Positions 5,911 through 44,145 of a stretch of DNA of 44,145 bases are shown piece after piece. This stretch comes from a virus: positions 1 to 44,145 of IMG/VR virus record IMGVR_UViG_3300046167_000686, one strand, 5' to 3'. The notes under the pieces are model-generated. The model was given only the letters and a program-made list of their open reading frames with translations, made no database searches and had not been told where the DNA came from. Made by a program: the position numbers and the translations under genes. Each line of letters begins with the position of its first letter. Position 1 is the stretch's first letter.

Positions 5911-6086
5911 TATTACCGTCAGTTCGCTAAGAAATCGTGAATTTAATAAAAGATTTTGCACCTCTGGCAACAGTTAGTGGGCACCTCGTCGCAGTCCTGA
6001 CTAATTGAAACCGCCTCAAAAGTAAATACATTGGACTGGTGGGACACCCCTGCCCTGCATTTGCGCCAACAACCTAAAGGATACGC

Positions 6087-8549: not shown

Positions 8550-8571
8550 TGCATTTACTTTTGATGAGAAA

Positions 8572-8594
8572 TCAAAGGTTGCACCATAGCTATA
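8572..8594 (+). promoter_or_regulatory. Candidate phage RNA polymerase promoter, middle genes
   Basis: TCAAAGGTTGCACCATAG matches the copy at 40329 at 17 of 18 positions, and a shorter TTGCAC version lies at 18111. Aligned to the T7 promoter, the shared CAC-N-ATAG falls exactly at the CACTATAG initiation box. It lies directly after the polymerase gene, where T7-like phages place class II promoters. Confidence 0.65.
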
Positions 8595-8612
8595 ATAGGA
8601 AGGAGACCCCAA

Positions 8613-8738
8613 ATTACACCACAAATAGAAACCCTTATCCATGTCGCCGAATACCTCACAAAATACGGACAGCCAGTACCGCTAGACACTCTTACCCGAC
8701 TTCTGGAAGCGGGCATCGACATCAAAAAGTTTACATAA
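8613..8738 (+). CDS. Small protein, 41 aa, possible ATT start
   Basis: Short open frame between the polymerase and the single-stranded DNA-binding protein gene. AAGGAG lies at good spacing before an ATT codon; there is no ATG, GTG or TTG in position. Either a rare ATT start is used or a base call hides an ATG. The peptide is helical (TPQIETLIHVAEYLTKYG, then TRLLEAGIDIKKF) and resembles a small helix-turn-helix-like or adaptor peptide, but no family is recognised. It follows the candidate phage promoter directly, so it would be the first phage-polymerase-driven gene. Confidence 0.5.
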   Translation: MTPQIETLIHVAEYLTKYGQPVPLDTLTRLLEAGIDIKKFT

Positions 8739-8748
8739 AGGAACCTAC

Positions 8749-9368
8749 ATGGCTCAAACACAAATCAAAATCGTCAGCCCAAGAGGCATTGCAGTTTACC
8801 CTTGGTTAAACCGCCCTGACACAAAGTTCTCCGCAGATGGAGACTTTAAGGTCACGCTGAAGGTGGATGCCGCAGAAGCATCCCCCTTAATCAAAAAATT
8901 GGATGACATCATCAGCGATTACCAACAGCAACAATCCAAAGCTGACCCTAAGGTAGCACGCTATAGTGTGTGACCCAGCCTTATGAAGAGGAGATGGATG
9001 ACCAAGGAAATTTGACAGGCAACTATCTGTTCAAGTTCAAGCAGAAGGCTAAGATACATACCAAAGACGGTCGTACCATCGATATGAAAGTGGCATTGGT
9101 TGATGCGTCTCGCACTCCAACGACCGTCATTGTTGGCGGTGGCAGCGAAATTAAGATTGCAGCAACCGTTTTCCCGTACGCAATGAACACTAATAAAACC
9201 ATCGGTCTGTCACTTCGGCCAAATGCTGTTCAAATCCTCTCTTTGGTCTCAAACCAATCAAATGTGGTCTCCATGTTTGATGATGAAGATGGCTTCAAAA
9301 CAGAAGCTGCCCCAGCTGCCAATGAAAACTACAGTAGCCCTGAGTTGGAAACAGCAGCTGACTTCTAA
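8749..9368 (+). CDS. Single-stranded DNA-binding protein, T7 gp2.5-like (frameshifted)
   Basis: Protein of about 206 residues that should coat single-stranded DNA and coordinate polymerase and primase-helicase at the fork. The N-terminal part (VYPWLNRPDTKFSADGDFKV) has the typical pattern of T7-like phage single-stranded DNA-binding proteins, followed by an OB-fold-like beta-rich body. The end is acidic with a terminal phenylalanine (ELETAADF), the feature that in gp2.5 contacts its partners. One frameshift near 8965 joins the two frames. The ATG follows AAAGGAACC. The position between RNA polymerase and endonuclease I matches T7 gene 2.5. Confidence 0.85.
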
Positions 9369-9370
9369 AC

Positions 9371-9795
9371 GTGGACGGGTACCACCCTCCCAAACTGAAC
9401 TACGAAAAAACGCAATTAAGAACGGATGGCGGTCAGGGCTTGAAGAAAGTCTTGCCGCCTACCTTTCTGGCAAAGGCATCACGTTCCAATATGAAGAGAA
9501 CAAACTCACGTATGCCGTGCCGCAGCGCCAAGCCACCTACACGCCTGATTTCTACGTCACCACCAAGAGTGGTAAAGTTATCGTAGTTGAGACCAAGGGA
9601 CGGTTCGTTACCGCAGACCGCCAAAAGATGTTGCTCGTGAAAGACCAGCATCCTCACCTTGATATTCGGATGGTCTTCTCCAACCCGAATACCAAAATCT
9701 CAAAAAAATCACAGACCACTTATGCAGATTGGTGCGAGAAGCATGGCTTTCTCTATGCCAAGCAGCTGGTCCCAGAAAGTTGGCTCGATGAATAA
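9371..9795 (+). CDS. Endonuclease I, Holliday-junction resolvase, T7 gp3-like (frameshifted)
   Basis: Junction-resolving nuclease of about 141 residues that debranches replicating DNA and helps degrade host DNA. The catalytic set of the family is visible: E in GLEESL, E in QYEEN, D in YTPDF, E and K in VVETKG. HPHLDIRMVFSNPNTK and YADWCEKHG also match the family. A GTG just after the previous stop begins MDGYHPP, resembling the MAGYGAKG start of T7 gp3. A frameshift in the A-run near 9405-9412 then moves to the main frame. It overlaps the amidase gene by eight bases. Confidence 0.85.
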
Positions 9796-10228
9796 AGAAG
9801 ACGTTAAATTTATCATCGTCCATTGCTCATACACCCCGCCCAAAATGGATATTGGCGTCAAAGATATTGACCGCTGGCATCGTGAACGTGGCTGGATGGG
9901 CTGTGGCTATCACCTAGTAATCAAGCGTGATGGTACAGTTGAGCAAGGGCGAGAACTAAGCAGACAAGGCGCTCACGTGAGAGGACAAAACTCTCGCAGC
10001 GTTGGTATCTGCCTTGTTGGGGGCATGAGACCCAAGTCCCCAACCCCAGAAATCAACTACACCGATGAGCAGATGGCAGCACTACGCTCAACCATCGACA
10101 ACCTCATCGCTGAAGAGTTCCCCGCCGCCCAGGTGAAGGGACATACTGATTTCGACAAGGGCAAAACCTGCCCCAACTTCAATGCTGGCCTTTGGTACGA
10201 GACGGACGAAATTGTCTCCACCATCTAA
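9788..10228 (+). CDS. N-acetylmuramoyl-L-alanine amidase, T7 lysozyme (gp3.5) type
   Basis: Zinc amidase of 146 residues that cleaves the amide bond between muramic acid and peptide in peptidoglycan, giving lysis. In T7 the same protein also inhibits the phage RNA polymerase. Zinc ligands are visible: H in IIVHCSYTPP, H in VKGHTDFDKG and C in KTCPNF. WHRERGWMGCGYHLVI is the family core. Length is close to T7 gp3.5 (151). It has no signal peptide, so release depends on a holin, for which a candidate lies at 37929. A terminator follows. Confidence 0.93.
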   Translation: MNKEDVKFIIVHCSYTPPKMDIGVKDIDRWHRERGWMGCGYHLVIKRDGTVEQGRELSRQGAHVRGQNSRSVGICLVGGMRPKSPTPEINYTDEQMAALRSTIDNLIAEEFPAAQVKGHTDFDKGKTCPNFNAGLWYETDEIVSTI

Positions 10229-10269
10229 AGCATCACCAATCACGACACATCACCAACCACTACCCAGAA

Positions 10270-10294
10270 GGCTCACCATTCGGTGGGCCTTTTT
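10270..10294 (+). terminator. Intrinsic terminator after the amidase gene
   Basis: GGCTCACC pairs with GGTGGGCC (one G-U pair) around ATTC, followed directly by TTTTT. It closes the unit of single-stranded DNA-binding protein, endonuclease and amidase. Confidence 0.85.
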
Positions 10295-10325
10295 CATTTA
10301 CACCTGACAACAAGGAAACCTCCAT

Positions 10326-10523
10326 ATGACACAATTGGAAATCGTAAATCACCACCTCGCAACCCATGGCCGCATTACGCCTCTCGAAGCGCAATCAAAC
10401 TATGGCATCTGGCGGCTTGCTGCCGTCATCCACAAACTCAAGAAGAGCGGCTTGGACATCCACAGCCGATTGAAGACAGCACCAAGCGGTAATCGCTATG
10501 CGGTCTACAGCCTTGCTGGCTAG
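10326..10523 (+). CDS. Small helix-turn-helix protein, 65 aa
   Basis: Small basic protein with a helix-turn-helix pattern across most of its length: EIVNHHLATHGRITPLEA, then YGIWRLAAVIHKLKKSG, then the short strand SRLKTAPSGNRYAVYSL. This arrangement matches the small helix-turn-helix domain proteins found beside primase genes in many T7-like phages. The ATG follows AAGGAAAC. It overlaps the primase-helicase start by 26 bases. Its role, whether transcription control or a replication accessory, is unknown. Confidence 0.8.
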   Translation: MTQLEIVNHHLATHGRITPLEAQSNYGIWRLAAVIHKLKKSGLDIHSRLKTAPSGNRYAVYSLAG

Positions 10524-12146
10524 CGAAAGCGAATACCTCCGCAAAGAACCGTGTCCATCCTGTGGGTCATCTGACGCCAGAGCCATCTACAGCGATGGAC
10601 ACACCTATTGTTTCTCCTGCACCACCCGCACACGCGGCGATGGCGAGGAGCCTTCAAGAAGTGGACCTCGAATGCCGCAAGACCTAATACCGTTTGGGGA
10701 AGCCCAAGCGTTGCCTAAGCGTGGCATTACCGATGAGACCTGCCGCAAGTTTGGCTACACCATTGGTGAACACCACGGCGAACCAGTACAGATTCGCAAC
10801 CTATCGTGATGCAACTGGCGCACCCGTCGCCCAGAAACTGCGCTTCAAAGACAAGCAATTCAAATTCATCGGCGATACGAAAAAGGCTGGCCTTTATGGG
10901 CAACACCTTTGGCGTAACGAGGGTGGTAAAATGTTGGTTATTACGGAGGGCGAGGTTGATGCACTGAGCATGAGCCAAGTCCAAGGTAACCGTTTCCCTG
11001 TTGTGAGCGTTGGAACAGGTGCAGCAGGCGCAAAGAAGGCTGTCGCTAACTCACTAGAGTTTGTCGAAAGTTTTGACCGTGTTGTTATCATGTTCGACAA
11101 CGACGAGGCTGGCCGCACGGCAAGCCAAGAAGTCGCAGCAATGCTGTCAGTAGGTAAGGCGGCTATCGCCACCCTGCCCCTCAAAGACGCCAATGAAATG
11201 CTCATGGCTGGCAAAGGCGCAGACCTTATCTCGGCAATGTGGGACGCAAAAATCTATCGTCCTGATGGCATCATCGATGGTCAGAACATGTGGGAAACCA
11301 TCATGGCTGACGATGATGCTGAGAGCATCGACTATCCGTTTCGATGGTTTGAACCAGAAAACATTAGGGATGCGGCGCGGCGAACTGGTCACAATAACGG
11401 CTGGCTCTGGCGTGGGGAAATCCCAAGTCTGCCGCGAGATTGCCTACGAACTACTGAACCGTGGCGAGAGCATTGGCTATATTGCGCTTGAAGAAAACAC
11501 CAAGCGCACAGCTTTGGGCCTGATGGGCCTATCACTGGAAAAGCCGTTGCATCTATCCAAGGAAGGCATCTCTGAGGCGGTCATGCGTACCGCATTTGAT
11601 GAGACTGTCGGCAGTGGACGGGTGTTTCTTTACGACCACTTCGGTTCACTGGCCACAGACAACCTGCTGAACCGTGTTCGTTACTTGGCCAAGGCTTGCA
11701 ATGTTGGTTGGGTCATCCTCGACCACCTAAGTATCGTGGTCTCGGGCGTTGATAACGGCGATGAACGCAAGGCAATCGATGTCATCATGACTAAGCTGCG
11801 TTCGCTCTGCGAAGAAACGGGCATTGGCCTCATCCTCGTATCCCACCTCAAGCGCCCCAGTGGTGACAAGGGATGGGAGAATGGCCTCGAAACCAACCTC
11901 AATTCCCTGCGTGGTAGTGCGGCCATCGCCCAGCTGAGTGACATCTGCTTGGGCGTCGAGCGTGACCAGCAAAGCGACAACCCAAATGTCTCAACAATCC
12001 GTGTACTCAAGAACCGCTTCACGGGTGAAACAGGTGTGGGCTGCTTCGTTCATTACAACAAAGAAACAGGTCGCATGGTCGAAGTCGAAGACCCAACAGT
12101 CTTTGCCGATGAGACAAACGACGGAGAAGTCACAGAAGACTTTTAA
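10498..12146 (+). CDS. DNA primase-helicase, T7 gp4-like (two frameshifts)
   Basis: Bifunctional replication protein of about 549 residues (T7 gp4 is 566). The N-terminal zinc-binding motif has CPSCGS and CFSC pairs. The TOPRIM primase core shows EGEVDALSM and MFDNDEAGR. After a linker, the RecA-like hexameric helicase has Walker A GSGVGKS, EENTKRT, a Walker B strand VILDHLSIV and LVSHLKRP. The end is acidic with terminal DF, as in T7 gp4, where this tail contacts the polymerase. Frameshifts near 10800 and 11375 split primase from helicase in the raw frames, but every motif is intact. The ATG lies inside the preceding small gene. Confidence 0.92.
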
Positions 12147-12171
12147 CAGCTAGTCGAAAGGGACAGCATAC

Positions 12172-13956
12172 TTGAAGAACATCTTATTTGATATTGAAAC
12201 CAATGGACTTCTACCAAAACTAAGCGACGTGTCACTCGCTGGTTATGCTAGATGTCGATACAGACGAAATGGTATCCTGCGCAGACCAAGAAGGATACAC
12301 TCCCATTGCTGAAGGCTTGGACATCCTCGCCAAAGCAGAACGCCTTATCGGCCACAACATCCAAGCCTTCGATTTACCAGCACTGAATAAAATATACGGC
12401 TTCACCTACCACGGTGAACTGCATGATACGCTGATATTATCACGGCTAGTCTGGTCAGACTTGAAGCAAAACGACTTTGCGTTTGCCAAGAAGAACAAAG
12501 AATTTCCCATGAAGCTGGTAGGCTCTCACTCGCTTGGCGCTTGGGGCCACCGCCTGAGCAACCATAAGATTGAATATACAGGTGGCTGGGCTGCTTGGTC
12601 TGAGGAAATGCAGACCTATTGTGAGCAAGACATCTACACGAACCTGACGCTCTACAATAAAATCCTAAGCAAAGAGCCTACGCCTGACAGCATCGCTCTG
12701 GAACATGACTTCGCTGCAATCATACGCAAGCAGGAAGACCATGGCTTTCCATTCGATGTGACCAAGGCAAATGCTCTACTGGCCAAGCTACAATCTCGCA
12801 AAGCCTCATTGGAAGCTGAACTGCAAACCGCCTTCCCACCTTGGGAGATACGTGAGCCGTTCATTCCAAAGGTTAACAACAAGACCCGTGGCTATGTGAA
12901 GGGTGTCATGACGCACAAAGTTAAGACCGTCGTCTTTAACCCCGCCTCACGTGACCACATCGCAGACCGCCTCAAAGCCGTACATGGTTGGAAGCCCACA
13001 GACTTTACGGCCAATGGAAAACCAAAGGTCGATGAGGATGTGTTGAAGCAGCTGGATTATCCAGAGGCTGTACTTCTCAATGAGTTTCTACTGCTCAACA
13101 AACGCATCGGACAGCTGGCAACAGGCGCTAATGCTTGGCTCAAGCTGGAACGCAAAGGCAAGATGCACGGTCAGGTCATAACGTCGGGGACTGCAACTTT
13201 CGCTGCACCCACAACAGGCCCAACGTCTCCCAAACGCCGAGTGTCAACGCACCCTATGGCAAGGAGTGTCGTGAATTGTTCCATGCACCCAAAGGCTCAA
13301 AGCTCGTCGGTGCTGACCTCTCTGGATTAGAGCTACGCTGCCTCGCCCACTACATGGCGAAATTTGACGATGGTTCCTATGGCGAAGAGGTCGTTAATGG
13401 AGACGTGCATACAGCCAACCAAAAGGCTGCAGGTCTGCCGACACGCAACAACGCCAAGACGTTTATCTATGGCTTTCTCTATGGCGCTGGCCCAGCAAAG
13501 ATTGGGTCAATCGTTGGGGGAAGCGAAGCCGAGGGCAAGAAACTCATCAGCAAATTTATGAAGGCGACACCTGCCATCAAGTTGCTGCGTGAAGCTGTGG
13601 TCAGGACTGTCAAAACCAAAGGCCATCTCAAGGGACTGGATGGGCGAACACTGCCTATCCGTTCAGAACATTCTGCACTAAATATGTTGCTGCAATCGGC
13701 CGGAGCAATCCTCGCCAAGAAAGCAACGGTCATCCTGTACGAGAACCTGACCCGCATGGGTTATGTCTTCGGCAAAGACTATGCGCTTGTTGCTCATGTC
13801 CATGATGAGGTGCAGCTGATTACCAAAGAGGAAATCTCGACCATTGTCGGACAACAAGCCGTCACCGCCTTTAAAGAAGCGGGTGAATACTACGGCTTTA
13901 GATGCCCCATCACGGGGGAATTTAAGGTCGGCCAAACGTGGGCGGACACGCACTGA
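12172..13956 (+). CDS. DNA polymerase I family (polA), T7 gp5-like (two frameshifts)
   Basis: Replicative DNA polymerase of about 594 residues with a 3'-5' proofreading domain. Exo I is FDIETNG, Exo II lies near IGHNIQAFDLPAL, and YCEQDIYTN is Exo III. Polymerase motif A is GADLSGLELRCLAHYMA, motif B is NNAKTFIYGFLYGAG and motif C is HVHDEVQ. The terminal TWADTH resembles the NWAICH end of T7 gp5. TTG is the likely start: it gives KNILFDIETNG at the correct distance and has AAAGGGA upstream. Frameshifts lie near 12240 and 13195. It is about 100 residues shorter than T7 gp5, as in many small podoviruses. Confidence 0.93.
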
Positions 13957-14230
13957 GGCTCAACGCCGAAAGCGAAACGCCAGACGTCAGGACTTGGTTC
14001 AATACAAAGGTGGCATCTGTGAGCGGTGCAATGAACCACATCACTACGTTGCCTTTGACTTTCACCACCAAGACCCAAGCGACAAGGCTTTCCCACTATC
14101 CCAGCGGCACATGAGCCGTGTGTGGGGCGACCTGATTACCGAAGCGGATAAGTGCCACCTGCTCTGCGCAAATTGCCACCGCATTGTTCACTTCGAACAA
14201 GACCCAACTTTCCTAAAACCCAAATCATAA
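13844..14230 (+). CDS. HNH endonuclease, start uncertain
   Basis: Nuclease of the HNH family. The domain shows paired cysteines CERCNE, the HH of FDFHHQDP, then CHLLCANCHRIVH, giving a metal-bound beta-beta-alpha fold. A strongly basic stretch (RTRTEAQRRKRNARRQ) precedes it. No ATG is available. The listed TTG overlaps the polymerase end by 113 bases; a TTG at 13992 would drop the basic region. The true start is probably between 13937 and 13992 or masked by an error. HNH genes next to polA in T7-like phages are often homing endonucleases, which is the likely role here. Confidence 0.8.
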   Translation: MSDNKPSPPLKKRVNTTALDAPSRGNLRSAKRGRTRTEAQRRKRNARRQDLVQYKGGICERCNEPHHYVAFDFHHQDPSDKAFPLSQRHMSRVWGDLITEADKCHLLCANCHRIVHFEQDPTFLKPKS

Positions 14231-14240
14231 AGGATGCTGA

Positions 14241-14879
14241 ATGATAGCAGTACAGTACATGAGTTCCATGGGCGACGATAACCTTGTTGTCGATGCCGCA
14301 AGAGTTTCGTTTGACAAACAGGCTGAGAATTTTGGCCCACGTCAGAACGAACGTCTGATAAACTTTTTAGCAAAAGAGAAGCATACCGCCCCATTTACCC
14401 ATCCGACTGTCTCATTCAGATGCAAGGCTCCAATCTTCATGGCCCGTCAACTTGCCAAACATCAGGTTGGCGGGACTTGGAATGAGGTCAGCCGCAGATA
14501 CGTCAAGACAAGCCCAGAGTTTTGGAAGCCCGACTTCTTTCGAGCAGCTGCTGATGACGTGAAACAAGGCTCGTCTCCTGACCCACACCGTCGAAGCGAT
14601 GAGTTCCTCGAAGAATACCTCGACATCTGCATCGATGCCGTTGCCGCTTACAACAAGATGGTCGCTCTTGGCATCTGCACAGAGCAAGCCAGAGCCATCC
14701 TACCACAAGCCGCGATAACCGAATGGGTATGGACGGGTTCCCTACTCTTCTGGTCTCGCGTCTATGACCTGCGCAGTGCGGACAACACGCAAGCGGAGAC
14801 CCGTGAGTTTGCTGATTTGCTTGATGAGCAGATGACAGCGTTATTCCCAATCTCTTGGGAGGCGTTGCTGAATGGATGA
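14241..14879 (+). CDS. thyX: Flavin-dependent thymidylate synthase ThyX
   Basis: Makes dTMP from dUMP using methylene-tetrahydrofolate, FAD and NADPH. It is 212 residues, the usual phage ThyX length. The ThyX signature is present in its phage form, RQLAKHQVGGTWNEVSRRY (about 73-91), which binds dUMP and flavin. The N-terminal VDAARVSFD and the C-terminal QARAILPQA with the following tryptophan-rich helix are also typical. The ATG follows AAAGGATG. It is part of the nucleotide supply set with NrdJ, MazG and the DUF3310 protein, and it overlaps the next small gene by eight bases. Confidence 0.95.
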   Translation: MIAVQYMSSMGDDNLVVDAARVSFDKQAENFGPRQNERLINFLAKEKHTAPFTHPTVSFRCKAPIFMARQLAKHQVGGTWNEVSRRYVKTSPEFWKPDFFRAAADDVKQGSSPDPHRRSDEFLEEYLDICIDAVAAYNKMVALGICTEQARAILPQAAITEWVWTGSLLFWSRVYDLRSADNTQAETREFADLLDEQMTALFPISWEALLNG

Positions 14880-15075
14880 CCATGATTATGAAATCGCAGT
14901 TCTCGCAACCATGTCTGAGTGTATCTCAAGATTGGTGAAGGCATCCTCCAAAACAGAGGATGAGCACATGAAAGCCATTACATCTACGGCTGCTTCCATT
15001 TGCATGAACCTGATGCTCTCCACCCAACGCAAACCAGCAGACGTCCACAGTATCAACGGGGAGACCATGCAATGA
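14872..15075 (+). CDS. Small hypothetical protein, 67 aa
   Basis: Small acidic, mostly helical protein with no recognised family. GGAGG is located nine bases before the ATG. It overlaps both neighbours (ThyX and exonuclease) by a few bases, the usual sign of translational coupling in this block. There is no strong membrane segment, although AITSTAASICMNLML is moderately hydrophobic. It probably belongs to the replication and nucleotide operon. Confidence 0.7.
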   Translation: MDDHDYEIAVLATMSECISRLVKASSKTEDEHMKAITSTAASICMNLMLSTQRKPADVHSINGETMQ

Positions 15076-15821
15076 AGTTCCTAATTGATGCAGACATAGT
15101 TGCTTTCAAGGCGGCATCAGCTGTTGAGCAGCCTGTTAACTGGGGCAACGGTCTGTGGACACTCCACAGTTTTGAGCATGAAGCTATCGACCACTGTATG
15201 GCTTACTTCGACAAGCTGAGAGAAACGCTTGGTGATGGCGAATTAAAACTCTTTCTGACTGGCAAGAACAACTGGCGCAAAGAAATCTTGCCCAGCTACA
15301 AAGCCAATCGGAAGGACAAGCGGAAGCCCATGCTTCTGCTGTTTTTGCGCAACTGGATGCGAGCGCAATTCAATGCCGTTATCGAAGACGGCTTGGAAGC
15401 AGACGACCTGCTTGGCATTCACGCAACTGCAAACCCTGATGACACACTAATCGTCAGCGAGGACAAAGACCTCAAGACTATCCCTGCACTACTCTTCAAC
15501 CCAGCTAAAGATACTTCGCCCAAGCGCATCACAGAGTTCGAGGCTGACTACAATCATATGCTTCAAACCTTAACTGGCGATGCCGTCGATGGTTTTGCTG
15601 GCTGTCCTACAGTCGGCCCGAAAACTGCCGAAAAAATTTTGAAGGATTGCACCACAAGTGCTGACCTTTGGGACGCAACTTTGGCCTCATTCAAAAAACA
15701 GAAACTCTCAGAAGAAGTGGCACTAGTCCAAGCGCAAGTCGCTCGTATCTGCCGTGACACAGACTTTGACACTAACACGAGGAAAGTCATTCCATGGACA
15801 CCCAATTTTCAGACCAGATAA
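15072..15821 (+). CDS. 5'-3' exonuclease, T7 gp6-like
   Basis: Flap/5'-3' exonuclease of 249 residues that removes RNA primers and degrades host DNA to nucleotides. The N-terminal metal-binding aspartates lie in FLIDADIVAFKAA. YKANRKDKRKP matches the helical arch basic region; EADDLLGIHA and VSEDKDLKTIP carry further metal ligands. TGDAVDGFAGCPTVGPKTAEKIL is the helix-hairpin-helix part. The ATG overlaps the previous stop. The single frame is intact and the length is slightly below T7 gp6 (300). Confidence 0.9.
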   Translation: MKFLIDADIVAFKAASAVEQPVNWGNGLWTLHSFEHEAIDHCMAYFDKLRETLGDGELKLFLTGKNNWRKEILPSYKANRKDKRKPMLLLFLRNWMRAQFNAVIEDGLEADDLLGIHATANPDDTLIVSEDKDLKTIPALLFNPAKDTSPKRITEFEADYNHMLQTLTGDAVDGFAGCPTVGPKTAEKILKDCTTSADLWDATLASFKKQKLSEEVALVQAQVARICRDTDFDTNTRKVIPWTPNFQTR

Positions 15822-16045
15822 TTCAACCTGCACACTACGCACAGTATGCGGTGGAACCTATTGAGTTCATCATGGTCAATGACATGGACTTCTGGCGCGG
15901 CAACGTAATCAAATACGTTAGCCGTGCTGGCTCTAAACTCTATGACGGCCAAGACGAAACTCAATCTGAAATCACAGATTTATGTAAAGCCATTCGATAC
16001 TGCGAAATGCGTATCAACATGCTCAACGAAGAGGGCATTTTATAA
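15794..16045 (+). CDS. DUF3310 protein, related to the C-terminal domain of T7 gp1.7
   Basis: Protein of 83 residues with the DUF3310 pattern: PAHYAQYAVEPIEFI at the N-terminus, then FWRGNVIKYVSRAG. In T7 this domain is part of gp1.7, a nucleotide kinase that affects dideoxynucleotide sensitivity; the stand-alone short form is common in phages and its activity is not settled. It overlaps the exonuclease end by 28 bases and touches the MazG gene, consistent with a role in nucleotide metabolism. Confidence 0.85.
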   Translation: MDTQFSDQIIQPAHYAQYAVEPIEFIMVNDMDFWRGNVIKYVSRAGSKLYDGQDETQSEITDLCKAIRYCEMRINMLNEEGIL

Positions 16046-16374
16046 TGGTCGTCGAACTCAACGAGTATCAAAAGCAAGCAGCAAACACCGCCGTCTACCC
16101 AGACAAGTCAGCACTTGAATACCTAACGCTGGGCCTACTGGCAGAAGCGGGTGAACTAGCAGGGCATTATGCCAAGTGGCTGCGCAAAGACAGCAGGCTG
16201 CAACCCTATCCCGCTGAAGCTGTGATGGCTGAAGCAGGTGATGTGCTGTGGTTCATCTCAGAACTTGCACGGCTGCATAACAAATCTCTCTCCAACCTCG
16301 CTCAAGAAAATTTAGACAAACTCGCCTCTCGCCAGAAGCGCGGGAAACTCAAAGGAAATGGTGACTATCGATGA
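16045..16374 (+). CDS. MazG-like nucleoside triphosphate pyrophosphohydrolase
   Basis: All-alpha NTP pyrophosphatase of 109 residues. The metal-binding pattern is present: LLAEAGELAGHYAKWLRK with two glutamates, then MAEAGDVLWFISELA. Phage MazG proteins hydrolyse dNTPs such as dGTP and dCTP, or modulate (p)ppGpp-linked signals; the exact substrate cannot be read from sequence. The start overlaps the previous stop, and the end overlaps the NrdJ start by four bases, so all are in one operon. Confidence 0.88.
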   Translation: MVVELNEYQKQAANTAVYPDKSALEYLTLGLLAEAGELAGHYAKWLRKDSRLQPYPAEAVMAEAGDVLWFISELARLHNKSLSNLAQENLDKLASRQKRGKLKGNGDYR

Positions 16375-18075
16375 ACAAAAACCACAATCAACCTTACGGG
16401 CCATCCCTGCCCATCTCGGAGGAGATTGATAAGACCAAGTACCGCCAGACTGGTGAAGACTTTTATTCCAAGGTCGTGCGCATCGCCAACGCATTGAAGG
16501 ACAGCCCCCAGCACTTTGAGGATTTCAAGGATGCCATGCGCTACATGCGATTTCTCCCAGCTGGCCGTGTGCAAAATGCGATGGGCGCAGCACGTCAAAC
16601 CACAGCGTATAATTGCTTTGTGTCTGGCACTATCGACGATAGCATGGACAGCATCATGCAGCGTGCAACCGAAGCAGCTGAAACGATGCGGCGTGGTGGT
16701 GGCATCGGATACGACTTCTCTCGTCTGCGACCTAGAGGTGACCGTATCAAATCGCTAGACAGTAAAGCCTCAGGCGCTGTCTCATTCATGCAAATCTTTG
16801 ATGCAGTCTGTCAGACCATTGCATCATCTGGTCACCGCAGAGGCGCACAGATGGGTCGTCATACGCATCGACCACCCCGACATCGAACAGTTCATCACCA
16901 CCAAGAATGACGGCACCTCGCTGTCAGGTTTCAATATCTCAGTCGGCGTCACCGATGAGTTCATGGAATGCCTCGAACAAAAGAAACCATTCCAGCTGCG
17001 CTTTGATGGGGAGGTCCACCGTGAGGTAGACCCAGTGGCACTGTGGGACATGATTATGCGGTCAACTTGGGATTGGGCAGAACCCGGGGTTCTGTTCATC
17101 GACACCATCAACAAGATGAACAACCTCTACTATTGCGAGACCATTGAGGCCACCAACCCTTGTGGTGAGCAGCCCCTGCCACCGTATGGTGCGTGTTTGC
17201 TTGGCTCGTTTAACCTCGTGAAGTACGTCGAGGACGGTGGATTTAATCAGCGTCAGTATGAAGAGGACATCGCCACCGTGGTTCGCGCCATGGATAACGT
17301 CATTGACCGTACCATCTACCCGCTACACGCACAGGAACTTGAGGCTAAGAACAAACGCCGTATGGGCTTGGGCATCACAGGCTTGGCTAATGCGGCTGAA
17401 ATGTGCGGTATGCCCTATGCCTCACCTGAGTTCATGGACTTTGCTGAGACTATACTGGCCACGCTTCGTGACCATACATACTTTACCAGTTCAACACTGG
17501 CGGCTGAGAAAGGGTCATTCCCGCTCTACAATGCAGACAAGTTCTTGAAGAGTAAGTTTGTGCAGTCGCTGCCCGATTGGGTGCAAGCAAAGATACGGGT
17601 CAATGGGATACGCAACTCACATCTGACTTCGATTGCACCAACAGGCACAATCAGTCTCACGGCTGACAACGTGAGTAGTGGTATCGAACCACCCTTCTCT
17701 CTTTTCTACGACCGAACCATTCAACAGTTTGATGGCTTCCAAGTGGAACGGGTCGAAGACTATGCGTACCGCCAAGGCGTTCATGGCCGAACTGCCAACG
17801 AGATTAGTGCGCGAGACCATCTTGCGGTTCTCGCTCTATCATCACAATTCGTGGATAGCGCAGTTTCAAAGACCTGCAATGTTGGCGAAGGCGTGAGCTA
17901 TGATGAGTTTAAAAACCTATACTTCGATGCGTGGAAAACAGGATGCAAAGGCATCACGACCTTCCGCGCAGCGGGTAAACGCTATGGGATTTTGAACGAG
18001 GTCAAAACTGAAGAAAAGCCAAACGCAGAGGCTTGCTACATTGACCCAAACACTGGCCAGAAAAGCTGCGAATAA
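16371..18075 (+). CDS. nrdJ: Class II (B12-dependent) ribonucleotide reductase NrdJ (one frameshift)
   Basis: Reduces ribonucleotides to deoxyribonucleotides with adenosylcobalamin; about 567 residues. Visible parts are [13 protein letters not shown] (first active cysteine), [15 protein letters not shown], the catalytic [21 protein letters not shown] with the radical cysteine, [15 protein letters not shown], and [10 protein letters not shown]. There is no NrdB partner, in keeping with class II. The C-terminal [13 protein letters not shown] gives a cysteine pair for electron transfer. One frameshift near 16855 separates the N-terminal third. With ThyX and MazG it makes a dNTP supply module common in marine podoviruses. 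Confidence 0.92.
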
Positions 18076-18627: not shown

Positions 18628-20174
18628 ATGAGTATGGGAAACGCCGAAGAGCGTTACCGCGCTCTTGAACACTCACGTCAATCCTACCTTGATAGGGCTA
18701 GAGATTGTTCCCAAATCACCATTCCAAGCCTAATACCACCTGATGCTCACAACGAGACATCAGATTTGTATACGCCCTTCCAAGGCATCGGCGCTCGTGG
18801 TGTGAACAACCTAGCCTCTAAACTTTCGCTGGCATTACTGCCACCGAATGCACCGTTCTTTCGTTTCATGGTTGAGCCGTACACGCTTAAACAAATGGCC
18901 GAAGAACCCGAAGCACGTACCAATGTTGAGAAACAACTTGGTGAATATGAACGTGCGGTGATGAGTGAGATTGAAAGTGCTGGCGATAGAGTTGCGGTAC
19001 ACGAAGCACTAAAGCACCTGATTGTAGGTGGTAATGTGCTATTACACGTCGGACCAGATAAAGTCCGAGTGTTCCATTTAGATAGTTATGTCGTCAATCG
19101 GTCCCCTAGCGGTGACGTGCTTGAGGTCATCACAGTTGAACATGTCAGCCCTAATAGTTTGGACAAAGCGACCGCCGCTAAAATCCAAGGCAAACTCGAA
19201 GGCGACGAAAAGACACTTGAAGTCTACACCTACGTTGAGCGTAAGAACCAATTCTTCCACGTTTACCAAGAGGTCAAAGGCGAGGTCATACAAGGCTCAA
19301 AGGGTAAGTACCGCGAAGAAAGCGTACCATTCTTGCCTCTCCGCTTCTCTCGCATTGACGGGGAAGACTATGGCCGAGGCTTTGTAGAAGAACTCCTGGG
19401 CGACCTTCGCTCACTAGAGGCGCTCTCACAGGCTATCGTCGAGGGTGCAGCCGCTGCCGCCAAAGTTCTGTTTATGGTTAATCCAAACGGCACGACGCGG
19501 ATGCGGACAATCGCTCAAGCAGAGAACACAGCAATCATAGAAGGAAATCGACAGGATGTTTCCGTTTTACAAATGGACAAGTACAATGACTTTCGAGTGG
19601 CCTACCAAGCTATGCAAGGAATTGAAGAACGACTTATCTCAGCAATTTATGCTTCAGTCTTCAGTTCAACGAGACGCAGAACGAGTCACAGCAGAAGAAA
19701 TCAGATACCTCGCAAGCGAGTTAGAAGACACCCTCAGCGGTATCTACAGTATCTTGTCGCAAGAGTTTCAGCTGCCCTACGTGAACCGCAAGGTGGACGT
19801 ACTTACCAAAGCCAACAAGTTACCAAAACTGCCAGACGATGTTGTGAAACCTACAATCGTCACAGGTATGGAAGCTCTTGGCCGTGGCCACGACCTACGC
19901 AAATTAGACTTATTCATTCGCGGTATGACCTGAAGCCTTAGGGCCAGAAGTCCTGCAGCGTTACATCAACCTACAGGATTACATCAAAAGACGTGCGACT
20001 GCCCTCGGCATCGACACAGAAGGATTGATTAAATCCGAAGAACAAATCGCCCAAGAACAGCAACAGGCACAGATGCAGCAAATGATGCAGCAAGCTGGGC
20101 CGAATGCAATTCAAGAAGGCGTGAAGCAATTAGGAAGCCAATATGAGCAAGCCCAAGCCAACCCCCAAGCCTAG
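18628..20174 (+). CDS. Portal (head-tail connector), T7 gp8-like (frameshifted)
   Basis: Forms the dodecameric portal through which DNA is packaged. About 515 residues, close to T7 gp8 (536). Typical segments: RQSYLDRARDCSQITIPSL, TPFQGIGARGVNNLASKL, ALLPPNAPFFRF, GNVLLHV, YGRGFVEELLGDLRSLEALS and RDAERVTAEEIRYLASELE. The C-terminal part is glutamine-rich (QEQQQAQMQQMMQQAGP). Frame changes lie near 19650 and 19930; the tail is only found by reading past the second one. The ATG follows GTGAGAATATAA, with only a weak ribosome site. Confidence 0.93.
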
Positions 20175-21610: not shown

Positions 21611-22575
21611 ATGGCAAACGCAACAGCGTCCCGCTTAGGTGTAGTCAATGGCGCAACGCCAACCGATTTTGCGAGTGCGAATAACCTATTTCTTAAGGTG
21701 TTCGCTGGTGAAGTCCTGACTGCATTTGACGAAAACAACGTGATGAAAGACCTTCACACGTCTCGAACAATTCAAAGCGGTAAGTCCGCTTCATTCCCAG
21801 TAATGGGCAAAACATCGGCAGCATACCACACCGTTGGTACACCGCTGCTCGGTACACAATCAGTCAACCACAATGAAGTCGTCATCAACATCGATGACCT
21901 GCTCGTGGCTGACACATTCATCGCAGACATTGATGAAGCCAAGAACCATTACGATGTACGTGCAGAATACTCACGTCTCCTTGGTATGGCTTTGGCCAAA
22001 GAGTTTGACACACGCACAATGCGCGTAGGTCCTTCTCGCAGCCCGTTCTGCGGCAACAGTATCAGGAGGGAATGGTGGTTCTGCTATCGTATCTGCAAAC
22101 GCTAAAACAGCGGGTGCTGACTTGGCTGCTGCTATCTTTGACGCGGCTCAAGCAATGGACGAAAAAGATGTTCCAGAGAATGAGCGCGTGGCTTTGGTTA
22201 AACCTGAGCAATATTACAACCTTGTCCAAACCACGGATGTTATCAATCGTGATTTGGGGCGGTGCTGGTGTATACGCTGATGGTTCTGTACTTCGCGTGG
22301 CTGGTGTTCAGATTGTAAAGACAAACAACCTGCCAACAACAAACGTGACAGCCGTATCAGGCGAGAACAACACCTATAATGGTGACTTCTCAAACACCGC
22401 TGCACTCGTAATGCAGAAGCAAGCTATCGGCACAGTGAAGCTGATGGACTTGGCAGTTGAGCAGACAACTGGCGACTTTAACATCATGTACCAAGGCACT
22501 CTTATGGCTGCAAAATATGCAATGGGCCATGGCGTCTTGCGTCCAGAATGTGCTGTCGAAATTAAGACTGCATAA
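21611..22575 (+). CDS. Major capsid protein, T7 gp10-like (frameshifted)
   Basis: Main shell protein of HK97 fold, about 321 residues (T7 gp10A is 345). Family segments: FLKVFAGEVLTAFDENNVM, TRTIQSGKSASFPVMGKT, VNHNEVVINIDDLLVAD, then PENERVALVKPEQYYNL, GSVLRVAGVQIVKTNNLP and HGVLRPECAVEI. Frame changes occur near 22030-22110 and 22200-22250; the restored order is collinear. ATTAAGGATATACAACT precedes the ATG. A strong terminator follows, matching the T7 layout with a terminator after gene 10. Confidence 0.93.
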
Positions 22576-37928: not shown

Positions 37929-38321
37929 ATGAACCTCAGTTCCCTCGGCGGCGTAGTCGATGGGCTTGCGAAAGGTTTAGACGAACTCTTCACATCCGAA
38001 GAAGAGCGGGAAGCTGCGAAGCTAAAATTAGCTACGCTTATGCAGCAACCGCACATGCTCCAAGCAGTGGCAAATATTGAAGGTGCAAAGCATCGCTCAA
38101 TCTTTGTCGCTGGGTGGCGTCCAGCTATCGGCTGGGTCGCTGCCCTTGGCTTGGGGTATCAGTTCCTAATCCTACCCTTCGCTGGCCTTATTAACGCATA
38201 CGCCCAGCTACCCACAGAATTGCCCGTTCTAGCGGGCGAGCAACTCATGAGCCTAGTCATGGCCCTCTTAGGTCTTGGCGGCATGAGAACATTCGAGAAA
38301 TACAAAGGCGCATCCAAATGA
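37929..38321 (+). CDS. Holin, three-TM GTA-type
   Basis: 130 residues matching the GTA_holin_3TM pattern. It has an amphipathic, charged N-terminus (GLAKGLDELFTSEEEREAAK), then RSIFVAGWRPAIGWVAALGL as the signature, a second hydrophobic segment (YQFLILPFAGLINAYA) and a third (LMSLVMALLGLGGMR), and ends basic. Holins open the inner membrane so the amidase at 9788 can reach the wall. The ATG follows AAGGATATACT. It overlaps the terminase small subunit by four bases, as the T7 lysis gene lies next to gene 18. Confidence 0.88.
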   Translation: MNLSSLGGVVDGLAKGLDELFTSEEEREAAKLKLATLMQQPHMLQAVANIEGAKHRSIFVAGWRPAIGWVAALGLGYQFLILPFAGLINAYAQLPTELPVLAGEQLMSLVMALLGLGGMRTFEKYKGASK

Positions 38322-38551
38322 CAGACAAAGAGATGATGGCCCTGCTGCATAAAACGCTGGCAGAGAACCTACTTCTTCGCATTCAAGACCCAGAGGCAAA
38401 ATCGGCTGACCTAAACGTCGCCCGACAGTTCTTGAAGGACAACGGTATCGAAGCATTAGCAGTCGAGGGTTCACCTCTAAGCAGCCTAGTGGCCACCCTG
38501 CCCGACTTTAGCGATGCAGATTTTGATGTGAGTGAGTTGAAGGCGCACTGA
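38318..38551 (+). CDS. Terminase small subunit, T7 gp18-like
   Basis: 77 residues (T7 gp18 is 89). Helical N-terminus (MMALLHKTLAENLLLRIQDPEAKSADL), then NVARQFLKDNGIEA, a pattern shared by gp18-type small terminases, and an acidic end (PDFSDADFDVSEL). It binds concatemer DNA and the large subunit to start packaging. The start lies within the last codons of the holin gene, and its stop overlaps the large subunit start. Confidence 0.88.
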   Translation: MTDKEMMALLHKTLAENLLLRIQDPEAKSADLNVARQFLKDNGIEALAVEGSPLSSLVATLPDFSDADFDVSELKAH

Positions 38552-40278
38552 TGTTTAAAGCAACAACCTCGCTTGGCATCCCCATAGCGAATGACCCGCT
38601 TTCAGATTTCAGAAAGTTTCCTCTTCGTTATCTGGAAGCACCTCAACCTCCCCGACCCTACCCCAGTTCAATATGACATCGCCTACAACCTACAGCATGG
38701 CGACAAGCGAATGATTATCGAAGCATTCCGAGGCGTTGGTAAGTCATGGGTCACATCAGCCTACGTGGTCTGGCTTCTGTACATGAACCCACAGCTAAAC
38801 ATCTTGGTCGTTTCAGCGTCTAAATCTCGCTCAGACGACTTTCACTACGTTTACCTTGCGGCTCATTAACGAGATTGAAGTATTGGCCCACCTGCGGCCA
38901 AAGCCTGACCAAAGACAGTCCAAGATTAGCTTTGATGTAGCACCTGCTGCTGCGTCTCACGCACCCTCAGTGAAATCTGTGGGTATATCAGGCCAATTGG
39001 CTGGCTCTCGTGCAGATGTAATCGTCGCAGATGACATCGAAGTACCGAACAACTCTATGACACAGGGAATGCGGGATAAACTGTCAGAGGCTGTGAAGGA
39101 ATTTGACGCTATTCTTAAACCAGATGGGCGTATCATCTACCTTGGGACACCACAGAACCAAGAGAGCTTTGTATAACAAACTGCCTGACCGTGGATATAA
39201 GGTCAGTATCTGGCCAGCTAGGTATCCAAATCCAGAGCAGATGGTGGGATATGGTAGTAAATTAGCACCGCTCATCAGTAATGCATTGGCTGTCGACGCT
39301 ACCATTGTCGGTGAACCTACAGACCCAAACCGCTTCTCAGATTTTGACTTGTTGGAGCGAGAAGCAAGCTACGGTCGCAGCGGCTTCGCACTACAGTTTA
39401 TGCTCGATACGAGACTCTCTGATGCGGAAAGATACCCCCTCAAGGTGTCTGACCTAATCATCATGGATATACCCACTCAGGAAGCCCCTGAGAAGGTCTC
39501 ATGGTCATCTGACAACCAGTATATTGTGGAAGAATTACCGAACGTAGCGTTCAACGGTGACCACTATCACAAGCCTATGTTTATGAGTTCTGAGTTCGTC
39601 GAATATACAGGCTCAGTCATGAGTATTGACCCCTCAGGACGCGGTAAGGATGAAACTGGGTATGCAGTCGTAAAGATGCTCAATGGCTACCTATACGTCC
39701 GTAGATGCGGTGGCATTGCAGGCGGATACTCAGAGGAAGCACTCCAGAAACTTGCAGTCATCGCAAAGGAAGAACAGGTCAATGAAATTATTGTTGAGTC
39801 AAATTTTGGTGATGGGATGTTTAACCAGTTGTTTATGCCTGTGCTGAACAAAGTCCATCCTGTCACAATGAGCGAGGTCCGTCACAATACGCAGAAGGAA
39901 CGCCGTATCATCGATGTTCTTGAGCCTGTGATGAACCAACATCGTCTCGTGGTGGACAAGAAGGTCATCCAGAAGGACTTTGATAGCTGTCAGCACCTGC
40001 CCCCTGAGCAGGCTCTACGTTACCAGTTGATGTATCAGCTAACCCGTCTGACAGCCGACAGAGGCGCATTGACTAACGATGACCGCTTAGATGCTCTGGC
40101 TATGGCTTGTCAGTATTGGGTTGATGCAATGGCTCAGGATGTCGAGCAGCGTATGGGTGTGCGAAAAGAAGAGCTGATGGCAGCTGAAATAAATAGACTG
40201 CGTGAGCAGGCTTCTATGGGTTTCGCTGTGATTACGGGTCACCAGAGTGAGAAGACCAATCAAGGTCTGCGCTGGTGA
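38551..40278 (+). CDS. Terminase large subunit, T7 gp19-like (frameshifted)
   Basis: DNA-packaging ATPase and nuclease of about 575 residues (T7 gp19 is 586). Walker A is EAFRGVGKS, Walker B is DVIVADDIE, and the coupling motif is YLGTPQ. The nuclease domain shows [25 protein letters not shown] and [11 protein letters not shown], giving the three acidic metal ligands. Frame changes lie near 38627, 38848 and 39165. ATG overlaps the previous stop. It cuts concatemers at the genome ends, which should lie in the following non-coding region. Confidence 0.94.
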
Positions 40279-40700: not shown

Positions 40701-40765
40701 CGCCAAGCTCCTTTTGACAATCATACCGCAATCAAAAAGTTTACGCAAAAAAATCCGAGGGGGTA

Positions 40766-41173
40766 TACGTATATGGGCCGAGCGCAAATCCCCCCATCGG
40801 CCAACGCTGCCATCAGCCAAATTTTCGACCAATTTACCGTCAAAATTACCGTTTCCGATACGCGATAATCATATAAACATGGGGCATGGGGGTCATATTT
40901 AACAGTTATCACAACTGTTACCAGCAAGAATCAGGTGCATTTTGAGCCATTGGCGGCTTTCTTTTGCCTCTCTTTTTATTCTCTATCGTTTTGCAAATCA
41001 CCATAATCATATCCAATCACTATTGATACGATACTCATAATTCATTGTTTATAAGTAATAACCAATATTAGTTACTCATTAAATGCGCATCACCCTTGAT
41101 TTCACCTCACAAGTGACTTAGGTGTAATGGCACGGGGTCACTTCCGACGTCGCCAACAAAAGGAAACGCACAC
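40766..41173. other. Non-coding leader of the second early region
   Basis: About 400 bases with no supported gene. They begin with the near-identical 89-base block, followed by the conserved palindrome and an AT-rich part diverged from the left copy by substitutions and indels. TTGATT and GGCACGGGGTCACTTCC are again present before the first gene. A 10-bp palindrome TATACGTATA straddles the start of the block. Confidence 0.6.
40901..40919. promoter_or_regulatory. Second copy of the 19-bp palindrome
   Basis: AACAGTTATCACAACTGTT, identical to 134-152. Here one more flanking T-A pair extends the symmetry. Conservation against changed flanks supports a protein-binding site. Confidence 0.45.
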
Positions 41174-41512
41174 ATGGGCTATCATAAACAAGCCGCAATC
41201 GCCGCAGATGACCTAAACTGGTTCTTAGAATCCGCACGGGCTGGCACCATCGACGAATACTACTGGTCACTCGAAGGCACACCCACAAGCCGCATGATGG
41301 CCATCGATACACGCGGTACACTCGAAGAGCATGGTGGCCTTGTCTATCGCTTCGAGGATGTAGCAGTCTTCGTACCTGACCACATCTTTGGCATAGTACA
41401 GCCAATCGTTGAGCAGCTGCCTTACAAACGAGCAACGCCAGCAGCAGTCCTGCCCTTCCCTGCCACTGATGAACCGACAGGCTATCACGGCCTCAACATG
41501 TCCGACCTTTAG
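41174..41512 (+). CDS. Early protein of unknown function, 112 aa, second copy
   Basis: Homologue of the protein at 419, same length, about 100 of 112 residues identical by my count. Differences cluster in the middle (EEHGGLVYRFEDVA versus EEQEGLLYRLSNVA). AAAAGGAAA precedes the ATG. The same start in both copies supports the gene model. Function unknown. Confidence 0.85.
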   Translation: MGYHKQAAIAADDLNWFLESARAGTIDEYYWSLEGTPTSRMMAIDTRGTLEEHGGLVYRFEDVAVFVPDHIFGIVQPIVEQLPYKRATPAAVLPFPATDEPTGYHGLNMSDL

Positions 41513-41574
41513 TCGGCCCCAATACAATCACTTTTGACCGGAAATCAAAGGTCATAACTTTAAGGAGAACTTCG

Positions 41575-41754
41575 ATGACTAAGACAATCACCAAAGGCCA
41601 ATACACCGCCAAAATCGATGCAAACAACTTTGTAATGCTGGTTCACAACGATGGGAGCCAACACGGCCGAGTTGTGAACTATCCAGCACCAAAGACATAT
41701 GCAAACCGCAAAACAGCAGAGCGTGGCGCTAAAGCCATGCTGGCCAAAGTTTAA
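41575..41754 (+). CDS. Early protein of unknown function, 59 aa, second copy
   Basis: Homologue of the protein at 834 with only two changes (MTKTITKG versus MRKEITKG). AAGGAG precedes the ATG. TCAAAGGTCATAACTTTAAGG just upstream partly resembles the phage promoter motif but lacks the CAC-ATAG box, so I do not call it a promoter. Confidence 0.85.
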   Translation: MTKTITKGQYTAKIDANNFVMLVHNDGSQHGRVVNYPAPKTYANRKTAERGAKAMLAKV

Positions 41755-41771
41755 TTTCGAAAGGAAACACA

Positions 41772-41966
41772 ATGACAATCATGACAACTCGCCTCGCCAA
41801 CCTTGAAGAAGGCACCAAGTTCCGCACTTCGCGCAACTCAGCTTTTTACTTCGTGGACGGCTATGACCGCTTATCGCGGCGCTATCACATCACGGCTTCC
41901 AACGGCGACATCTGCCAAATGCGGCCGAAGATGAAAGTCTATGTCCACGACGAAGCCTCATACTGA
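41772..41966 (+). CDS. Early protein of unknown function, 64 aa, second copy
   Basis: Homologue of the protein at 1031, same length, about eight substitutions (for example FRTSRNSAFYFVDGY versus FRTSAKSQFYYVDGY). GAAAGGAAA precedes the ATG. Followed by the conserved hairpin, as in the left copy. Confidence 0.85.
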   Translation: MTIMTTRLANLEEGTKFRTSRNSAFYFVDGYDRLSRRYHITASNGDICQMRPKMKVYVHDEASY

Positions 41967-41976
41967 CCTGCCCTGA

Positions 41977-42021
41977 CCTATCGGTGTCCAGCAGCTTGCG
42001 CCTCTGCTGGCATCCCATGGG
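41977..42021 (+). other. Second copy of the long conserved RNA hairpin
   Basis: Same stems as at 1236-1280: CCTAT/ATGGG, GGTG/CATC and CCAGCAG/CTGCTGG. The outer stem carries a change that still pairs (U-G), and the loop is CTTGCGCCT instead of TGTGCGCCC. The pattern, stem kept and loop free, is what a functional RNA structure would show. Confidence 0.6.
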
Positions 42022-42063
42022 CCATGAAGACCTATGATAACGGAAACTGTAATAGGATTTAAA

Positions 42064-42474
42064 ATGACGGCATTAACATTAGTGACAAACGAAAACGGGG
42101 CGAAAGCCCAACCAACAAACTCTGGGCCTGCAATCTATGTTTCGCCAAAGGATGCGACCCAAGAAATACCTGCTGGCTTTTATGTGCAGGACGATACACC
42201 GTGGACCATAAAGCAAATGGTTTACTGTCTGCAGCGCATCCCCAAGACCGATTTGAACGACTATGAAACCATGGTTGATGTCTCCGATATGGCTGAAGAG
42301 TTTTGTTTTGATGCTTTAAGGTCGGATGGTGACAATGGCTACGACGCCATCATCAATGAAGCGGAGCGCCTCGGTGTATTCACCGAAGATGGCTGGGTTC
42401 ATAACACTGCAAAAGGCCAAGCCACACTCCTGCGCATGTATAACGAGGCGCAAGATGGGACGACACGCTCATGA
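42064..42474 (+). CDS. Early protein of unknown function, 136 aa, second copy
   Basis: Homologue of the protein at 1323. The N-terminal 25 residues and the C-terminus are almost unrelated to the left copy, while the core (YVSPKDATQEIPAGFYVQDD, VDVSDMAEEFCFDAL, DGDNGYDAI) is conserved. AGGATTTAAA precedes the ATG. The stop overlaps the next start (ATGA). Confidence 0.8.
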   Translation: MTALTLVTNENGAKAQPTNSGPAIYVSPKDATQEIPAGFYVQDDTPWTIKQMVYCLQRIPKTDLNDYETMVDVSDMAEEFCFDALRSDGDNGYDAIINEAERLGVFTEDGWVHNTAKGQATLLRMYNEAQDGTTRS

Positions 42475-42632
42475 ACGCTGCAGAGGAGATGGAAATGGAT
42501 GACCTGCTCTACGATATGGAGGGCATGGCTGATTATTTGCGTGATGTTTATCACGAGCATGAGGTCGCAGATGACATGGATAAGGCGTGCAATACCATCG
42601 CTGTCTTAATCAAGAGGCTCAAAGCGGCATGA
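42471..42632 (+). CDS. Small acidic early protein, 53 aa, second copy
   Basis: Homologue of the protein at 1705; here the start is an ATG (MNAAEEMEMDDLLYDMEGMA), which supports the TTG start in the left copy. The remainder is nearly identical. It overlaps both neighbours by four bases. Confidence 0.75.
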   Translation: MNAAEEMEMDDLLYDMEGMADYLRDVYHEHEVADDMDKACNTIAVLIKRLKAA

Positions 42633-43156
42633 TTGATTCGGTTTTAGCATCCAAATTGGCACCATATATTGTAAATCGTACCTTACAAAAGCAAGATATA
42701 GTATGTTTTACGTATGTTTTGTGTATGCCCAATTGTGTCAAAGCCAAAAAATCGAAAAATAATTATCGTTTAAAAACAATGCTGACGACCGCAAACAGGT
42801 CGTCAAGCAATTTTTCTTTGTTTTTGCCTACATATAGTAGGTTCATCCCTTCTTTCCCGTCAGATATAGTCTTTCCAGCACTACAAAAATTAACTGGTCA
42901 GACACCAAAAGCACCCATTCGTGGGAACGGGAAAGGTATGTCTGGCGCATATAAAAGGACGCTGGCAATGCGTGGACTATTGAAGGCAGCACTTCGTGCA
43001 AAAGACATCGACATTTTTGTTCAAAAAGAACACGGGCGGATGCCCACAGTTTTGGACATTCAACGGCACCCACCCCGCCAATGTGAGGGCGGCATAGTAA
43101 CAGATTATGAGTTGCGTTACCTGCGCACCGTGATATATGCTTCAGTAGTGAAGTGA
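42629..43156 (+). CDS. Early protein of unknown function, 175 aa, second copy
   Basis: Homologue of the protein at 1863. The C-terminal 90 residues are conserved (TGQTPKAPIRGNGKG, DIFVQKEHGRMPTVLDIQRH, YLRTVIYAS). The N-terminal half is AT-rich and weakly conserved, though the frame stays open. Here an ATG starts the conserved part (MSGAYKR), immediately after GGGAAAGGT, so a shorter product is possible. Confidence 0.6.
   Translation: MIDSVLASKLAPYIVNRTLQKQDIVCFTYVLCMPNCVKAKKSKNNYRLKTMLTTANRSSSNFSLFLPTYSRFIPSFPSDIVFPALQKLTGQTPKAPIRGNGKGMSGAYKRTLAMRGLLKAALRAKDIDIFVQKEHGRMPTVLDIQRHPPRQCEGGIVTDYELRYLRTVIYASVVK
42783..42805 (+). terminator. Hairpin followed by T-runs, second copy
   Basis: GACGACC pairs perfectly with GGTCGTC around GCAAACA, extended by a T-A pair, then AAGCAATTTTTCTTTGTTTTT. 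It looks like an intrinsic terminator although it lies within an open frame. The left counterpart is at 2017. Confidence 0.4.
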
Positions 43157-43168
43157 AATCAAAAATGA

Positions 43169-44145
43169 TTGGACCTTGATTTGGACCATAAACAGACCAT
43201 TGCGTTTAACGGCTTGAACTATGTCGCTGCTTTTAGAGGTGCATTCTCGGAAGCAAACGTAAAAGAGCGTGTGTCTATCGAACATATGGAGACCTTTTTT
43301 CTTCATCATGACGGCGCACAATCAGGACAGCCTTGAGCTGCGGCGGCTACAAAAAGCCCTTGGTTACGCACAAGCTAAGATGCACCGTACCGCTTCCGTA
43401 CTGGAAACCTTGGGTTGGATTAAAACTAAGGATTCAGCCGCTGATGCACGGCAGAAAGATGTGTTTCTTACGGATAAAGGTCATGCATTCTTTGATAAAA
43501 TTACAAACTCACTGTCTGAGAAACAAAACGACAGCATCTTTGTTAAACGCAGTGAAGACATGCGTGACGTCATTGAAGAAGACAAAGCAATCCGTGATAT
43601 GCGTGTTATCGAATTACCTAAAACGGACCCAGAAGCACTGAAAAGACTTCAAATGCTTACCGAACAAATCAAGAGTGCTACGCCCAGTATGGACGCTACA
43701 GTGATGGTGGAAGGTGTCGAAGCGAAAGGTGAAGTTGGTCGAGCAAAGACACAAGCAGAGCACAGTGCGGAAATACACGATGCTTATCAGCGAGCAAAAA
43801 TAAACGAACAAATCCAAAAAGATGCGGCGATAGCAAAGGCGCGGCAGGACAAGCATAAAGCACAGCTCCGAGATGCAATTAGTGTTCTTGAAGATGGTCC
43901 AATCGAGGTGGGTGCTAACTATGTGAAAACCAGCCGTGGCATTGTCACCTTTGCTGTACTGTTAAGACGCATCAACGCTTATGACCCTACGCTTAAGGCG
44001 CGGTCTATTAGTCAAATTGGCCTCACAATCGCTACTATGAGTGAAGAAGACTACGACGATTTGATGACCCCTAGTCCAAAGACCAAGGTTGCACGTTTAG
44101 AAGCAGAGTTAAGTACGTTGAGTAACCGGATAGAGGCCACAGAAA
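43169..44145 (+). CDS. Winged-helix coiled-coil protein, second copy (partial, frameshifted)
   Basis: Homologue of the protein at 2406, cut by the window end. An extra T in the run near 43298-43304 shifts the frame after MET compared with the left copy, where the run is shorter. Past that point the reading continues in another frame with the winged-helix segment and the charged helical tail. Near 43620-43690 it has an insertion (PKTDPEALKRLQMLTEQIKS) absent from the left copy. GPIEVGANYVKTSRGIVTF is identical in both. Confidence 0.7.

Follow-up and report, generated by a model that had tools for sequence, protein, structure and literature searches.

The window, i.e., the whole of the IMG/VR record analysed here (44145 bases), contains the early region of a T7-like marine phage twice, in copies that belong to two different strains. 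We put a probability of roughly three in four on the junction being a product of assembly and not a real phage fusion: the assembler would have run through a shared end repeat, from the right end of strain A into the left arm of strain B. Positions 1-40765 appear to be one unit genome of strain A, a T7-like, integrase-bearing phage, starting exactly at the left end of the virion DNA. The size of this unit genome is ordinary (CRP-114: 40413).

The gene content is that of a T7-like phage (Autographiviridae), with its own single-subunit RNA polymerase and with T7-type maturases A and B in a conserved, collinear gene order. The genes and sites that bear on the argument are the following.

2406-3689, plus strand: early gene with weak MarR/winged-helix similarity (Pfam MarR_2, 21.3 bits, below the cut-off of 27; the homologue in L048 has 422 amino acids)
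3686-4727, plus strand: tyrosine integrase 1 with one frameshift near 4525 (PF00589; homologous to the CRP-114 integrase and to an intact 357 amino acid protein of L048)
4880-4931, plus strand: attP-like core resembling a tRNA 3' end, ...GGTTCGATTCCAGGGTCGCCCACCA (from the sequence; the core is identical in L047, L048, L015, L005 and L006)
4994-5842, plus strand: tyrosine integrase 2 (PF00589; a 95% identical homologue lies at the same place in L048)
6087-8546, plus strand: T7-type single-subunit RNA polymerase, its frame broken in the record (PF14700; tblastn to the CRP-114 RNA polymerase)
38318-38542, plus strand: DNA maturase A, the small terminase (tblastn to CRP-114 gp48, 72%)
38551-40275, plus strand: DNA maturase B, the large terminase, interrupted by three frameshifts as recorded (CRP-114 gp49 matches successive frames by tblastn; PF22530)

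The integrase and, after it, an attP core like a tRNA 3' end near 4880-4931 had already been recognized in the first-pass annotation, and we find the same. Between 3686 and 5842, two different tyrosine integrases flank this core, a layout that recurs in L047 and L048. ARAGORN and Rfam detected no complete tRNA or Rfam RNA at the core, and the protein of the early gene 2406-3689, used as a query, yielded no confirmed relatives.

Roseobacter Autographiviridae (CRP-114, CRP-227, CRP-361 and relatives; PMC11092137) share with the window the order of early genes, integrase, RNA polymerase, replication, capsid/tail, and maturases A and B. The maturases are 72-75% identical to theirs at the protein level, and the DNA of the maturase region is 76-77% identical. 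The window differs from these phages in having two integrases instead of one, other early genes, the arm of a second strain at its end, and many frameshifts. About 18 frameshifts relative to CRP-114, mostly +1, fall in essential genes (portal, capsid, polymerase, primase and maturase B; e.g., at 18628-20156, 21611-22572 and 38551-40275). They reflect errors in the reads or the consensus and not biology; since these genes must be intact, they mark the record as a consensus of limited quality.

Such errors do not account for the difference between the two early regions. A blastn comparison of the window with itself gives one long match, 1-3332 (copy A) against 40766-44144 (copy B), with 79.9% identity, 521 mismatches and E = 0, and the gene order in the aligned copies is identical. 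The differences include 324 transitions and 283 transversions. In three genes, the changes at third codon positions number 25 of 39, 40 of 53 and 55 of 88. Because the changes crowd into third positions, the copies are the product of evolved strain divergence, and sequencing error is ruled out as the source of the 20% difference.

1-3332, plus strand: left arm (early region) of strain A (80% match to 40766-44144); base 1 is the predicted physical left end of the phage genome, corresponding by motif to the left edge of the direct terminal repeat (DTR) of Syn5, P-SSP7 and T7
40856-44145, plus strand: strain B left arm, truncated where the record stops at 44145 (alignments to A and L048)
43618-43671, plus strand: 54-nt in-frame stretch (18 codons) found in B only and absent from A (alignment)

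These results bear out the earlier description of an early region that recurs at 40766 in the same gene order with clear divergence, and likewise its deduction that the copies come from different strains, a pattern that neither one circular genome nor one genome with terminal repeats can yield. The differing N-termini and the insertion near 43620 that it listed are also real. The former belong to the open reading frames 1293-1718 (A) and 42034-42474 (B), an early gene in which A and B diverge far faster than in the neighbouring genes. The latter is the stretch at 43618-43671; L047 and L048 have extra sequence at the matching position, and copy A may therefore be the deleted one. The gene at 2406-3689 runs unbroken across position 3332. 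This is the one observation that bears on whether 3333-40765 is also strain A, and we would assign the entire stretch to it.

The second copy does not begin at an arbitrary place. The early region restarts 490 bases after the end of maturase B (40275), at what would be a terminase cut site.

40740-40804, plus strand: candidate terminase cut/packaging site TTTACGCAAAAAAATCCGAGGGGGTA^TACGTATATGGGCCGAGCGCAAATCCCCCC, where the break would fall between 40765 and 40766 (the motif occurs in 50 IMG/VR contigs; DTR edges of Syn5, P-SSP7 and T7; kept in the chromosomal satellites of L059 and L060)

Around the joint the sequence reads AAAAATCCGAGGGGGTA/TACGTATA. The pattern AAAATNNGANGGGGTATACGTATA is present in 50 IMG/VR contigs (L138-L187), nearly always 3' of maturase B. 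A cultured relative, CRP-125, has the motif at 37436, where the genome end would be expected to follow GGGGGTA. A 26-nt weight matrix built from the IMG/VR contig sites has its top window in the record with the cut at 40766 (31.4 bits; the next scores 12.5), and it recovers the exact repeat edges of Syn5 (45978) and P-SSP7. These two cyanophages have linear genomes with direct terminal repeats of 237 bp (Syn5) and 206 bp (P-SSP7), and in both the right terminal repeat starts directly after the 26 bases that correspond to the motif. The ends of P-SSP7 come from sequenced ends (PMC3350473); the repeats of Syn5 and T7 were read from the ends of the deposited records. T7 aligns at the cut site as CCATAAAAATCTGAGTGACTA/TCTCACAGTG; there, AAAAATCTGAG...TA^T precedes the 160-bp repeat and CCCCC lies about 25 nt past the cut, as in the window. 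The combination TTTTGGNNNAAAAATCTGARGGGGTA^TACGTATA, with CCCCC about 20-25 nt further on, appears to be the genome-end mark of marine T7-like phages. Judged by sequence only, 40740-40765 is a sequence-specific genome end adjoining a direct terminal repeat, and the motif suggests that base 1 and 40766 each represent the physical left end/concatemer cut site of a T7-like genome.

The order of genes across this site is known from relatives. L048, L043 and L010 contain maturase B, the joint, the early genes and the RNA polymerase, each in one copy. This one-copy order, together with the cut-site motif, identifies 40766 as what appears to be a normal concatemer joint, in an autographivirus that bears integrases and is close to the Roseobacter phages. 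What sets the window apart from P-SSP7 and Syn5, where one phage lies on both sides of the joint, is that its right side belongs to another strain. A related switch is seen between L047 and L048, which come from two samples: on the right of the cut site their identity is 98.6%, and on the left they have diverged (L047 1-250, L048 2100-2420). The linkage of right end to left end across the joint thus varies between contigs elsewhere too.

At the joint the two strains share a block of exact identity. This block, as well as the position of base 1 and 40766 at the genome-end cut site, was overlooked in the first-pass annotation.

1-90, plus strand: first copy of the 90-bp exact repeat block, with which the presumed direct terminal repeat would begin (the copies have their first 90 bases in common)
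40766-40855, plus strand: second copy of the block, the bridge from the right end of strain A to the left arm of strain B (A and B 100% identical here, 81% afterwards)

Immediately past the block, the identity of A and B falls to about 81%. The next-longest identical run between the copies is 47. Judged by the tail of the remaining runs, a run of 90 at the first position has a p-value of about 5e-5. This value overstates the surprise, since constraint on the packaging site may cause part of the identity: satellites too retain the block's first 39 bases. Over the arm, A, B and L048 are equidistant (81.0%, 82.3% and 82.7%). Within the block, A and B are each 57% identical to L048, against 82-83% past it. 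That A equals B in the block although the three are equidistant over the arm points to shared sequence and not to ordinary divergence. An exact 40-mer of the block has no match in IMG/VR. The repeat length of strain A was sought from contig ends past the motif in other contigs, and no cluster was found. As for an identical repeat at both ends of one genome, the window shows 90 identical bp and then the strain switch; only these 90 bp are shared by its copies, compared to a repeat of 160 bp in T7.

A search of bacterial genomes with maturase B led to large chromosomal contigs of two Planktomarina metagenome-assembled genomes (L058, L059) and of Rhodobacteraceae IMCC1909 (L060). Each holds an element of several kb with maturases A and B and an integrase, and the maturase B proteins are 88-96% identical to that of the window.

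L058, about 6400-14900; L059, 2080-14190; L060, about 6400-16821: satellite-like elements

The phage cut site was found in the elements of L059 and L060, and the tblastn scan revealed no RNA polymerase, capsid or tail genes. A GMC oxidoreductase gene lies on one side of the elements and tRNA-Ser(CGA)/ribosomal protein S9 on the other; both flanks were recognized in L059, and in L060 the GMC gene was. The tRNA-Ser(CGA) was considered as the source of the phage att core and rejected, the core resembling a different tRNA. Relatives of the elements occur among IMG/VR contigs (L005, L006, L008 and L039). Two of them have the exact phage att core (window 4907-4931), at L005 3233-4090 and L006 5620-6060. 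In L005 a GMC oxidoreductase gene follows the core, and for this reason the element seems to be integrated at the phage's own site. These elements are probably satellites of the T7-like phage group that keep the DNA-cutting genes and the site of their helper. The marine satellites known as PICMI, which use headful-like packaging, lack packaging genes of the terS type (PMC10803314), in contrast to the Planktomarina-type elements with their maturases A and B and cut site.

How could an early region of strain B come to follow a genome of strain A? T7-like genomes have the same direct repeat at both ends, and assemblers routinely pass from the right end through the repeat to the left end. Six of ten Roseobacter autographiviruses were assembled as circles (PMC11092137), and P-SSP7, with its 206-bp DTR, was twice wrongly assembled as a circle through the repeat (PMC3350473). 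Where strains A and B share at least 90 bp at the repeat, the assembly path would have left the right end of A and gone on into the left arm of B, and the link would have been made by the assembler and not by a physical molecule. A 90-bp bridge would be compatible with a merge of the JGI type, whose minimum overlap is near 80 bp; we do not claim it for this record. Some considerations weigh against the assembly join. If the repeat of A had the 160-240 bp known from T7, P-SSP7 and Syn5, the strain change at base 91 would lie inside it. In addition, a contig that opens precisely on the cut site is easier to explain by reads from real virion ends than by a collapsed short-read repeat. Finally, part of the 90-bp identity may stem from the constraint on the packaging site and not from a shared read.

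Both the start at the cut site and the strain switch just past a cut site would be accounted for by a mixed concatemer, which we regard as an unlikely alternative. The terminal repeats of A and B would have recombined or annealed in a co-infected cell to give the right end of A, the repeat and the left arm of B, and terminase would have cut at the left end of A (base 1) and not at 40766, the molecule being sequenced before packaging. T7-like concatemers do arise by recombination at terminal repeats (PMC3350473), and L047 and L048 show a like switch at the joint. Such a molecule, however, exceeds one genome in length, which a virion genome cannot do; as a short-lived intermediate, it would be rare compared to normal genomes; and the indel load of the record suggests a consensus of imperfect reads. 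The first-pass annotation rightly listed both this possibility and a chimeric assembly as alternatives. The reading it favoured was a tandem prophage, with 1-4880 as the right end of one prophage joined at the tRNA-derived att core to a second at 4930-44145. The two integrases and the att core agree with it, and in L059 two related small elements are indeed integrated in tandem at a tRNA gene. We consider it improbable, more so than the concatemer. It leaves the 90 identical bases unexplained, as well as base 1 and 40766 falling to the base on a T7-type cut site; a prophage contig would start there only by chance, about 1 in 44,000. The border it places at 4880-4930 is not needed, as in L048 and L047 the whole stretch 3686-10066 belongs to one single-copy phage, its two integrases and attP core arranged just as in the window; this weakens the border, although a hybrid att would look alike. 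Phage genes run end to end across the 44145 bases with no host flank, yet the record may be a fragment. A search of bacterial genomes with integrase 1 found no match and hence no close prophage, and the sole close matches to maturase B were the satellites.

It is hardly conceivable that one virion genome has these copies as its two ends, its terminal repeats having diverged over time. Their position and order fit a terminal repeat, but repeats of the T7 type are copied in each packaging cycle and stay identical; known ones measure 160-237 bp, and a stretch of 3.3 kb that is only 80% identical and differs in its coding sequence falls well beyond this. The divergence pattern of A and B already contradicts such drift. 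The earlier argument that T7-type repeats, as copies of one another, would be identical stands. Repeats would be involved all the same, as the bridge that joins the strains.

If the mixed concatemer were nevertheless true, the window would show two T7-like phages, 81% identical, linked via a packaging site common to both and captured after one end had been cut, and marine strains that infect the same cell would be seen to exchange their terminal repeats. The assembly join that we favour implies that, in T7-like contigs crossing the genome joint, a right end and a left end from different strains can become linked. Early regions that are duplicated or in tandem there should not be taken as biology without read support. 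The motif itself appears to mark the genome ends of marine autographiviruses to the base. It would place the ends in many contigs without experiments and would flag misjoins of this kind.
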